Shown: one piece after another, positions 1-58,758 of the stretch
Numbering within the stretch: the stretch's first letter is position 1
Layout: the number at the start of each line of letters is the position of its first letter
NCBI GenBank assembly: GCA_004335835.1
Contig: RWJK01001688.1
Coordinates: 1 to 64,000, forward strand
Origin: Scenedesmus sp. ARA3
Lineage: Eukaryota; Chlorophyta; Chlorophyceae; Sphaeropleales; Scenedesmaceae
DNA length: 64,000 nucleotides
Direction of reading: 5' to 3'
Notes under the pieces: model-generated
The model's input: the letters and a program-made list of their open reading frames with translations, nothing else
Told to the model about the DNA's origin: nothing
Databases searched by the model: none
Made by a program: the position numbers and the translations under genes

Positions 1-3000
1 CAGATTTTCGGGTGTTCGTTGCAACGTAGTTGCCTGTGCACACCGTGTAACCCCTCTTCTTCGTTTTTTTTTTCCACTGGCCCAGACTTGCGTTGCTGCT
101 GCTGCTGACGCTGCACCTCTCTCTCTCTCGCTGCATGTACTTGTTGGTTTATGGGGAGGTAGGGGCTGCAAGATGCCTCTGAAGTTTTACTTTGGTTGCA
201 TCTTGTGGCTTGCTGTCGGGTTCTCATGATATGTGAGCTGAAAGAGGGGCAAGTGACTCGCTCTAGGGTGATAGCTTGCCCTCCCCTGTAACAGACCTCT
301 CTCTCGCGCTTCGGGTCTCATCGGGTTCTCATGATATGTGAGCTGAAAGAGGGGCAAGTGACTCGCTCTAGGGTGATAGCTTGCCCACCCCTGTAACAGA
401 CCTCTCTCTCCCGCGCTTGCTGCGTTTCTGCAGCAGGACTGCATCTGTGGCTACGGACAGCCTAGGCATGTAGTACATGATGTGCGACAGACCTTCTGGC
501 TTGTACAGCTTGGTAGAATCACAAGCACACTCACCATGCTTCAATGAGCTGACTTGCCCATGGCATGCAGGGTCCAACACAATGCCTCGCCTCACCTGTC
601 CACCTCTGCAGCCAGCTCAGCCACCTCCTCCATGCTGCCCAGCAGCAACGACAAAGTCAGACTGCTGCGCGCTTGCACGTGCCAGCATGCTCTGCAGACA
701 TTGCGGCTTGGGCCATCACCACCCTGCCACACCTGTGCACTGCAAATTGCTTACCTAGGCAAGCATCAAACCTAGCACGACAATATCTTTGTGAGAAGGC
801 ACCCAATCAGTGCAAAAAGCTGGCTCACCTGTCCACCTCTGCAGCCAGCTCAGCCACCTGCCGGGCCATCTCCTCCCTGCTGCCCAGCCGCGATGAGCCG
901 CCACCAGCAGCAGCCTGCAGCAGGAGCAGCAGCAGCAGCAGCAGAAGCAGCAGCAGCAGCACAGTGATTGATCAGCGCACAGCACAGCGCCATGAACGCT
1001 TCGTTGACATGCAGGCAGCCTGGAAGCAGGAGGGTAGCAGCGGCGCAAACACGACAGCAACCTACAATGATTTGCATGTACATTTCAAACGAAAGTAACA
1101 CTGTCATTAACACCCACCCCAGCCTGCAGCTCCTGCAGTGCAGCCAGCTGCTCCTCTTTCTCCTCCAGCACCTTGGCGCGCCGCTTTTAAGTCAACATCA
1201 CATACATTACGACAAAACGAACAATGGGTAATCAAATCACACAAAACCAACAATCATATAACAAATACCCCAGCTTGCAGCGCAGCCAGTTGCTCCTCCT
1301 TCTCCTCCGGCGCCTTGGCGCGCCGTGGATCAACCAAACAAATACCACAAAACCAACAATTGGTGTAACTACGCACCCCTGCCTGCAGCTCCCGCAGTGC
1401 AGCTAGCTGCTCCTCCTTCTCCTCCAACACTTTCGCGCGCCGCTGCTCTGCCAGCGCTTTGCCGCGCGCCTTGGCCTGCTGCGCCCGCACGGCTAGGTCT
1501 AGGGGAGACGGCCTGGCAGGGGCGGCCGGGGCAGCAAAGGGCAGCTGCACGCGCAGCGCGAGCCCGCCTGTAGCAGGATGCGGGAACAGCAGCGGCAGCA
1601 GCAGCAGCAGCAATGGGCGACACAGAGTGTCTAGAAGCGACGGATTGATAGAGAAAACCAATGTAACAGCCGGCGGTTTGGCCAGCTGCTCAACATGCTC
1701 AAGCACACCTGCAGAGTGCGGCTGGCTTGCTGCTTTTGCAGCAGAGCATCCTGCCCCTGCCGAGCACCTCGCGCGCACTACACTGCTGTCTCACACTGCA
1801 ACATCTAGCAGCTGCCTCAAGCCAGTGGGCTCACCTGCAGTGTGTGGCTGGTCTGCTGCTGCTCTCAGCTGCTCCCGGTAATCCCCAGCAGCGAAGCAGA
1901 AGTTTTCTTTCAATGCTTCCACCAGCTGCCAGTTGGCCAGCAGGCCCCCGGAGTGCAGCGGGGCCTGCAGGCTCAGCAGCTGCTGCAGGTGGCCGGTGCA
2001 GGCGGCACCGCCGGCCCAGCAGCGCATAGCGGCTGACCACTGCGGCTGGCCCTGCAGGGTGTGATGGCAGCGGCAGCAGCAGCAGCAGCAGCGGCAGCAG
2101 ACAAGCATGGTCAAGAAGGGTGCGACATGGGCACACATATCTGCAAGAATGTCCAGCAGAGGAGGCTCTGTACACACAAAAGTGGCTCTACAAATTCATC
2201 GTTGCATGACTCCGGCACTCCGCTGCATAAGTCTGAATCAATTGGCGCTGCACGTGTCACCCAGGCAGGCAATTCCTGTCCACGCTGTTGGCTTCACGCC
2301 ACGATGTTGTTTGCGCCTCGCTGCTGCCCTTTATGTACTGCATCGTAGCCCCGCACCTTGTATATTGGCACCACGTAGGTGCTGCTGTGCCCGCTGCACA
2401 CCACCAGGCCGCTGCTGCTGCCACAGTACGCCTCCTGCCACACGCCGTTCTGCTGCAGCAGCTGCTGCAGCTCCGCCTGCTGCAACCCCAGCGCACCCCA
2501 GCCATTCTGCTGCTGCTCCTGGGGGGCCTCGTTTTGCTGCTGCTGCAGCAGGTGGTGCCTGTAATAATGATGGTAGAAGGCTGCTGGCGCTGCTGCTACA
2601 TATGATAGTGCGGGGACGCCGTATGCTTCAAAAATGAGCTGTGCCAGCTGACTGCGAGCTCCATTTGGCATGAGAGGGGCTTCTGTCATGAGCAGCGGGT
2701 GGTCCACGCAGCCCGCTGCTTGCAGAGACGGCAGGAAAGCAGGCAAGCAGCTTCAGACAAGGATTGACCCCGGCTTGGAAGGCCTACACAATTGCTGGTG
2801 GTGCCAATCAGCAAACAAGTTCTGCCAAGTACTGCACACGATTGAAGTGGTTGATTGCTGCTGCTGCTGCTGCTGCTTCTGCTGCTGCTGCTGCTGCTGC
2901 TGCTGCTATGCTCACCCTCTGCCAGCCCCATCCTGTCCAGGGCCCAGTCCAGCAGCGCCTCCTGCGTCTCAAGGTTGGTGGGCACGTCAGACTCGTGCAC

Positions 3001-58600: not shown

Positions 58601-58758
58601 GCAGCAGCAAAGTCACAAGCACCAGCAGCAGCAAGCCTGGAGGTACAGGTACAGGCAAGCGTGGCGGCAGTGGCAGCAAGCAGCAGCAGCGCAGCAGGGC
58701 TACGTTCCGGGAACTGCAGCAGCGCACAATGGACGACTTTATGGCGAAGTCCAGCTGA
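52613..58758 (+). CDS. Photolyase/cryptochrome family flavoprotein
   Basis: FAD-dependent blue-light enzyme or receptor. Exons 52613-52850, 53494-53629, 53891-54049, 54294-54430, 55073-55387, 55573-55653, 55857-55970, 56258-56346, 56936-57119, 57491-57673, 57995-58121 and 58399-58758. Antenna-domain start AILWLRQDLRVHDNPALTEA; WRPGGASLLW; AVFCNRRYE; LLLQEPWEVQ; GHFGSLMPFYRAW. FAD domain: SVSRLSPYLHWGQVSVR, WKQGRTGFPLVDAGMRELWA, ATGWMQQSVRMVAAAFL, DCLVDADLAINSMMWQNAGK and GAYIKRWVPELAQLP, IHAPWEAP. The usual WQW at the active site reads WQN, so repair activity is not assured. A Lys/Ser-rich tail (KKKKQKKSGSSSSK) ends in FRELQQRTMDDFMAKSS. Polyglutamine is inserted near 55138-55175. It reads in phase from the upstream extension. 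Confidence 0.9.
52810..53130 (+). repeat. Donor-side copies of the first photolyase exon end
   Basis: GGGGAGGATGGCCAGGGCTG, then CAG and GTGGG (parent, ends 52850), recurs at about 52945-52985 and 53083-53125. Confidence 0.8.
53372..53540 (+). repeat. Acceptor-side copy of the WRPGGAS exon
   Basis: CCAG then CTGGAGGCTTGGCAGCGCTT at 53372-53420 precedes the parent CCAG then CTGGAGGCCTGGCGGCGCGT at 53490. Confidence 0.85.
54378..54865 (+). repeat. Four tandem copies of an exon end and intron start
   Basis: The parent end (PLPEPKAVPVMPKDPSAL, donor GTGAGTGG at 54431) is followed by units of about 140 bp at 54523, 54665 and 54808. These read GAGCCCAAAAGTGTACCAGT and end in GTGAGTGGCTGCGCAGGCAT (last copy altered). 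Confidence 0.93.
56165..56240 (+). pseudogene. tRNA-like relic, Gly(TCC)-like anticodon loop
   Basis: Within a photolyase intron. A D-arm-like TCTCAGTTGGTAGAGC, an anticodon loop CTTCCAA and a T-arm GCGCGTTCGAATCGCGT with five pairs (one G-T) occur in tRNA order and spacing. The anticodon stem has two mismatches and no acceptor stem pairs, so it is not a working tRNA. A tRNA-derived SINE head is the alternative. Confidence 0.4.
56605..56980 (+). repeat. Acceptor-side copy of the GMRELWATGWM exon with a stop
   Basis: 56609-56730 repeats 56862-56980, including about 70 bases of intron and CGCAG then GCATGCGTGAGCTGTGGGCC. The copy reads GMRELWATG then TAG, where the parent has TGG. Confidence 0.93.
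57433..57473 (+). repeat. Short intronic repeat, TTTGGTCAAAC
   Basis: Three perfect TGGTCAAA cores (57433, 57443, 57454) and one variant lie just before the acceptor at 57490. The core is the reverse complement of that in the 50101-50190 minisatellite. Confidence 0.85.

Follow-up and report, generated by a model that had tools for sequence, protein, structure and literature searches.

Diverged direct copies of exon edges beside predicted exons of the green alga Scenedesmus sp. ARA3

How do partial copies of an exon's edge, splice site included, come to lie in the intron next to that exon? The question is raised by a stretch of DNA from the green alga Scenedesmus sp. ARA3 (positions 1–64000 of contig RWJK01001688.1, which has 65419 bases; the whole stretch is hereafter the window), in which diverged direct copies of exon borders, here termed echoes, accompany predicted genes. 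The exon-edge copies are real and genome-wide. They probably stem from recurrent direct tandem duplications of ~100–150 bp that were tolerated across exon borders and then underwent neutral decay.

The window was analysed together with 19 extra stretches (178 kb, ~158 kb of it readable) from 18 other contigs and the tail of the same contig, giving 221,822 readable bases by our own sum; the assembly searched comprises 87.27 Mb in 1567 contigs. Its gene content, its G+C, and the abundance of introns in its genes fit a green alga. Exons and introns were predicted by a small hidden Markov model (HMM) trained on 12 hand-read photolyase-like exons and one leucine-rich repeat exon. Pfam DNA_photolyase matches the open frame of one of the hand-read exons, and the phases agree along all 12. 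For the whole set the model returned 455 exons and 410 introns, all of them predictions; 11 of the 12 hand-read exons were recovered exactly and the remaining one with shifted edges. Some called exons are echoes or mistakes, and at least two true edges (L005 9032 and L008 842) were overlooked.

Occurrence and geometry of the exon-edge copies

Comparison of the window with itself (masked, E ≤ 1e-3) gave 54 pairs, namely 51 direct pairs, 92–492 bp apart, and 3 palindromes. Pairs in the 19 extra stretches are likewise local and direct, with shifts of at most 880 bp, the exceptions being palindromes, one inverted pair at 163 bp, and one at 4.4 kb. When self-comparisons of all loci were pooled, 176 near direct pairs, 1 near inverted pair, 4 palindromes, and 7 distant or cross-locus matches were counted. 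Short shifts, to which BLAST is blind, were covered by an ungapped diagonal scan, which detected 277 direct and 3 inverted matches, as against 0 and 0 in a control shuffled in 6-mer blocks. The shifts of the 277 direct matches rise from 80–100 bp, with 23 below 80, and peak at 100–149 bp (108 matches); further mass at 220–299 bp (50 matches) looks like two units. Clustering of the scan matches with shifts of 60–200 yielded 115 events, for which the median shift is 121 (quartiles 106–141.5).

The relation of these copies to exons was assessed by comparing 283 of the 455 predicted exons (at least 60 bp long and away from locus ends) each with its own 1-kb flanks. Since a lenient threshold gave 18–19 matches by chance, at least 45 bits were required in this comparison; the pair lists behind the splice-site, spacer, and codon statistics below use at least 40 bits. 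The comparison gave 40 upstream and 39 downstream matches and 0 inverted ones, whereas swapping in the flanks of other loci gave 0.00. A match to its own flank on either side was observed for 66 of the 283 exons overall and for 23 of 94 in the window, and 22 of the 34 gene models having at least three tested exons carry an echo. The original prediction, made from the letters of the window, that short direct duplications over exon/intron borders are a habit of this genome, seen in unrelated genes and on both strands, is thus borne out by the comparison with swapped pairs. Its further statement that copies lie beside almost every gene's exons overstated their extent: in the window, they accompany 23 of 94 exons and belong to 6 of 8 gene models.

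Event density varies strongly among gene-bearing stretches of ~10 kb, and does so independently of exon density (Spearman 0.07). L010 and L014, each a 10-kb stretch in which multi-exon genes are predicted, hold zero pairs by either method—in contrast to L007, with 14 events—and L011 holds two pairs by BLAST and zero by the diagonal scan.

The position of the copies follows the rule that had been proposed for them: 31 of 40 upstream copies include the 5′ edge of the exon, and 35 of 39 downstream copies include its 3′ edge. A predicted exon edge is spanned by either copy in 73 of 105 primary pairs, compared with 37.7% of random 130-bp units. Both copies lie inside one exon in 5 of the 115 events, compared with 8.9 by random placement, and four of these five belong to one CAG-rich stretch; the small number of within-exon duplications points weakly to selection. 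Several loci inspected by eye show the copies to be located within larger introns, and the duplication junctions mostly look eroded.

The exon part of the copies measures 25–91 bp in 24 pairs upstream and 27 downstream, all with shifts of at most 170. Breakpoints centred on the splice site were suggested by a first Kolmogorov–Smirnov (KS) test (p 2.5e-7), a signal that weakened after splitting by side. Against random breakpoints with no rule for the intron, the exon-part lengths then gave p 0.012 upstream and 0.07 downstream; with a unit that keeps at least 40 bp of intron, the KS p values become 0.3 and 0.84 (n = 13 and 19), the centring signal disappearing because of this requirement. The 40-bp rule is motivated by the branch point and acceptor, and is less obvious for donors.

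The pairs and arrays of the window are as follows.

52613–52850, plus strand: cryptochrome/photolyase-like exon with echoed 3′ edge (Pfam DNA_photolyase; phases of the 12 hand-read exons)
52943–52977, plus strand: echo of the 3′ edge and donor of exon 52613–52850, shift 125 (self-match, 88.6%)
53083–53125, plus strand: further echo of the 3′ edge of exon 52613–52850, shift 264 (self-match, 86%; genome search)
53370–53413, plus strand: 5′-edge echo with AG in the preceding intron; the next exon starts at 53494 by hand and at 53500 by HMM (self-match, 84%)
54380–54863, plus strand: array of about three copies of an exon 3′ edge, donor, and intron start, unit 141–142 (TRF, self-match)
56476–56727, plus strand: upstream copy of the intron end and 5′ edge of exon 56936–57119, shift 244–246, with an in-frame stop (self-match)
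51953–52314, plus strand: array of an exon 3′ edge and donor, unit 147, with a more diverged copy at 52440–52504 (TRF-type repeat, self-match)
50319–50597, plus strand: array of an exon 3′ edge and donor, unit 106–110
30898–31305, plus strand: array of the 5′ edge and acceptor of exon 31246–31444, unit ~103–123
31592–31701, plus strand: echo of the 3′ edge of exon 31246–31444, 95% over 110 bp; intron past the donor unalignable, spacer unique in the genome
32210–32255, plus strand: echo of the 5′ edge of exon 32309–32394, shift 92 (self-match)
36048–36120, plus strand: echo of the 5′ edge of exon 36168–36344, shift 115; predicted exon chain shared with a subtilase frame at 37399–37932
43789–43862, minus strand: copy of the 3′ edge and donor of exon 44038–44317, shift 238; spacer unique in the genome
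6224–6606, plus strand: three echoes of the 5′ edge and acceptor of exon 6641–6835 (self-match)
6784–7037, plus strand: end of a last exon, stop included, duplicated past the stop, unit ~98–104
23908–24380, plus strand: exon 24021–24179 with an upstream 5′-edge copy (adjoining an N gap) and two downstream 3′-edge copies
8456–8707, plus strand: 3′ edge of exon 8318–8511 and its copies at 8592 and 8650 (self-match)
591–1444, minus strand: several exon-edge copies, shifts 117–258 (self-match)
46371–46793, minus strand: multi-copy array, shifts 97–331 (self-match)
216–414, plus strand: duplication of the rare kind that lacks a predicted exon part, period 105, 98%

Outside the window, an array at L017:8821–9388 interleaves two kinds of exon-edge copies, with shifts of ~179–188 and 83–128 bp.

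Coding status, splice sites, and locus of the copies

Among the 70 nearest edge echoes (3795 aligned bases), mismatches amount to 6.1, 5.4, and 14.4% at the first, second, and third codon positions, and the codon changes comprise 155 synonymous and 141 non-synonymous changes and 2 stops. Alignment gaps are not multiples of three in 28 of 29 cases, although some compensate one another. The ratio of third-position to first- and second-position mismatch is 2.37 in the 19 copies broken by a net frameshift or stop and 2.56 in the 51 open copies (bootstrap range for all copies, 1.95–3.30), which would be about the ratio of a constrained exon paired with an unconstrained copy. Judged by gap lengths and codon pattern, the copies look non-coding, with no visible coding constraint. 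The splice site had been predicted to be kept in the copies, and it is, though at about the neutral level: AG is present in 94–96% of 50 acceptor pairs and GT in 94 and 85% of 65 donor pairs, about equal to the 94% identity at first and second codon positions.

The queries run against the 87-Mb assembly were an array, two spacers, a complete intron, an exon of the photolyase-like gene, and an exon together with its arrays; each matched only its own locus or echoes. The array of L016 gave its own match and 40 short matches elsewhere, all of the latter within query bases 206–272, a CTG run. No second allele elsewhere in the assembly was found for one exon and one exon-plus-array, which are few loci. 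Because the searched pieces match only their own locus, a mobile element or a second haplotype laid in tandem is unlikely.

Tandem duplication, decay, and the alternatives

The genome would, in the mechanism that we propose, repeatedly generate short direct tandem duplications of ~100–150 bp. Those within coding exons would mostly be eliminated by selection, and a unit crossing from intron to exon or from exon to intron would leave the reading frame intact, because the copy still joined to the body of the exon continues to function while its duplicate is turned into intron. For the same reason, 5′-edge copies would end upstream and 3′-edge copies downstream, with the splice dinucleotides as passengers. 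The surplus copy would decay as noncoding DNA, the real exon would change chiefly at synonymous sites, and repeated rounds would build arrays and lengthen introns. Tandem duplication with decay explains the geometry, the orientation, and the retention of splice sites, and it is based on the locality of the pairs, their orientation and size quantum, a single locus where tested, the lack of visible coding constraint, and the homology that the intron halves show in roughly half the pairs. For the molecular step, fill-in and end joining of long-staggered breaks, of the CST/Pol alpha-primase or Pol theta type, are favoured as a putative, unproven route, with replication slippage as an alternative.

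Since tandem duplication requires that a piece of intron be duplicated as well, it counts in favour of this mechanism that the spacer is homologous to the sequence past the far copy (Smith–Waterman score of at least 30) in 33 of the 70 nearest edge echoes, such homology being undetectable in the others. With all 113 pairs rather than the nearest alone, 64 reach p ≤ 0.05. If a tandem unit has a shift of 120 and includes 50 exon bases, ~70 intron bases should be duplicated too; the observed intron extent of the copies is mixed, at less than 30 bp in 34 of 70 and longer in 36. Pairs lacking homologous intron halves would be decayed tandem duplications.

Several observations weigh against tandem duplication with decay, which leaves the rarity of purely intronic duplications and the unalignable half of the intron halves unexplained. 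At 6–50 bp from the splice site, identity on the intron side falls to 0.64–0.76 for acceptors and 0.62–0.68 for donors, compared with 0.86–0.95 on the exon side and with 0.54 and 0.52 for unrelated sequence. Unalignable spacers number 35 of 66, as against 3.5 of 66 predicted by the simplest ageing simulation, and 35 were reached only with at least one indel per substitution plus faster ageing. Noncoding-only events make up 22 of the 115, as against 52–69% in ten even-ageing runs of forward simulations with random ~125-bp duplications, conserved exons, and uniform decay; these 22 consist of 8 echo–echo events, 5 from one minisatellite, 1 exon that was, by our reading, missed, and 8 rows at 6 places. 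The minisatellite (L012:9647–9850) has a 24-bp period and lies outside predicted genes. Tandem duplication as the producer of the pattern, as originally suggested, stands with respect to geometry, but its plain version with even ageing fails, predicting many intron-only duplications and well-kept intron halves that are not seen.

Simulations with labile introns (1–2 indels per substitution in introns, 0.1 in exon-derived copies; one run per setting) come close. The closest runs gave 33 noncoding-only vs. 76 exon-involved events, or 14 vs. 68, and the spacers that could not be aligned numbered 38 of 58 or 43 of 51. These two runs, however, presuppose no duplications in the latest stretch of time—that is, a recent slow-down—and the same indel settings without it gave 101 vs. 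107 and 63 vs. 100. The fit is close only if indels are 10–20 times as frequent in introns as in exon-derived DNA, an assumption not justified by our data: the contrast finds some backing in the gap frequencies of spacers and exon parts given below, but short tandem runs are fewer in introns (0.050) than in exons (0.113). Exon and spacer divergence in 26 pairs correlate at rho −0.09 for first and second positions, where 0.37 (0.01–0.67) was expected, and at 0.14 for all positions, within that interval. In the array at 54380–54863, the exon part differs at 13 of 51 positions and the intron part at 6 of 89, the reverse of the prediction; the intron copies of this array may be evolving in concert (homogenised), with the exon protected. 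Decay alone is thus sufficient only with unconfirmed assumptions, and therefore conversion or border-directed formation retains some probability, albeit a small one.

This alternative, which we regard as doubtful though worth serious weighing, takes the exon borders themselves as the source: duplications of ~120 bp would originate preferentially at borders, for example through transcription- or splicing-coupled breaks, or the copies would be kept fresh by gene conversion from the real exon, such that exon parts persist and intron parts decay. It would accommodate the scarcity of intron-only duplications, the identity step located at the splice site, the 95% exon copies beside unalignable spacers, the weak coupling of exon and spacer divergence, and the one array with signs of homogenised introns. 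It is also favoured by the frequency of gaps in 31 pairs, 0.030 per bp in spacers vs. 0.0039 per bp in exon parts, a contrast partly due to two branches being compared with one and to ascertainment. On the other hand, the exon-part lengths are already fitted by random breakpoints with 40 bp of kept intron, the rest is nearly matched by the indel-labile intron model, the same genes contain full-unit arrays, and renewal of exon parts is opposite to the pattern in the 54380–54863 array. Were the borders indeed the source, introns would be grown and re-seeded from exon edges, and duplicate splice sites would be standing ready for intron gain or sliding.

Pieces of a second, divergent haplotype or strain placed beside the first by the assembler would yield similar exons with dissimilar introns, at a spacing close to short-read lengths, in an assembly that does contain N gaps. 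Such an artefact is improbable, given that the tested exons, echoes, and spacers have no second locus, that a five-copy array exists, that 19 of 70 copies carry a net frameshift or stop, and that the intron halves are homologous in about half of the pairs. A still smaller chance is assigned to working tandem or alternative exons retained for splicing. Indeed, 29 of the 70 nearest echoes are also called as exons by the HMM and synonymous codon changes slightly exceed the others (155 to 141), but called and uncalled echoes diverge alike (0.058/0.134 vs. 0.056/0.153), gaps break the frame, and broken copies share the codon ratio of open ones. The frame-keeping and coding constraint expected of tandem alternative exons were not found in these 70 echoes, and coding or alternative exons were rejected on gap lengths and codon pattern. 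Insertion of an introner, or of a transposon that leaves long target-site duplications, with the spacer as the element, is disfavoured as the least credible origin. Many pairs are direct copies around a spacer of ~40–90 bp, but the searches of the 87 Mb with two spacers, a complete intron, and one array returned only own loci and echoes, on which a dispersed element was rejected, and only 7 distant or cross-locus matches occur in the sample.

Related systems and other features

Counterparts of single events have been published. In the potato RdRp gene, a tandem genomic duplication over an intron–exon boundary gave rise to a new intron (Ma, Lan and Niu, 2016; PMC4974935); as in the alga, the unit comprises the intron end, AG, and the exon start, and an 83-bp duplication within an intron is described for the same gene. 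The potato case is, however, a single gene with a new intron, whereas in the alga the sites run to scores over 222 readable kb, most of them diverged and known from DNA alone. A Drosophila survey inferred tandem duplication for a few introns (PMC2891723), with a short direct duplication likewise adjoining splice signals and the new intron having the size of the unit; these units lie inside coding exons with AGGT, whereas those of the alga span existing borders and their copies land in existing introns. Because such single cases are in print, a name for this kind of event does exist, although the original prediction knew of none.

With respect to mechanism, small tandem duplications arise in mouse and human cells when breaks whose 3′ ends are complementary are filled in by CST and Pol alpha-primase (PMC8355091); as here, they are direct and sequence-independent. 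The insertions are discussed there as being shorter than 100 bp, unlike those of the alga, most of which measure 100–150 bp and cluster at gene borders. A survey of splice sites has also reported direct repeats of 4–30 bp (mean 11.4) in their vicinity (Rogers and Bendich, 2025; PMC11782384). They resemble the algal copies in lying about intron borders but pair both ends of one intron, whereas the alga copies one border with 25–91 exon bases. For Tetradesmus, a mean intron of 462 bp is given in the Raphidocelis paper, in the accessible text of which such copies are not mentioned (PMC5966456). No account of genome-wide exon-edge duplication was found in a literature search that left most subscription journals outside. 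What is known as single events apparently becomes new here in its density, size quantum, and association with borders.

Intron gain and growth by tandem duplication have so far been supported by few cases. Extrapolation from 115 events in 221,822 bases, an uneven sample, would give ~40,000 such events of all ages in the genome; if that density holds, the alga offers a natural experiment within one species on step length, tolerance at splice sites, decay, and the rate at which duplicated borders come into use. The narrow size of 100–150 bp calls for a specific molecular cause. The copies are best explained by these duplications, which would lengthen introns and could also seed new ones. The echoes might create introns or serve as decoy splice sites, as originally suggested, although the copies carry frameshifts and bear no mark of constraint.

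Some dispersed DNA exists in the genome, in the form of rare repeats shared between L009:705–817 and L019:5273–5385 (92%, 113 bp) and between L016:5145–5195 and window positions 43725–43775 (90%, 51 bp). No RNA families were detected in the window by Rfam, and the ARAGORN output was likewise empty, also for positions 56160–56235 in an intron of the photolyase gene, where a stretch with a GTTCGAATC motif looks tRNA-like. Imperfect palindromes (77–78%) occur at 31902–32054 (153 bases) and 24475–24551 (77 bases) in the window, in which inverted features are otherwise few. CAG/CTG runs are very abundant, as at 38575–38714, 46866–47007, and 49345–49511; two of them reach ~47 units, several lie in predicted coding sequence, and an N gap of 50 bases (49402–49451) falls between two CAG runs.

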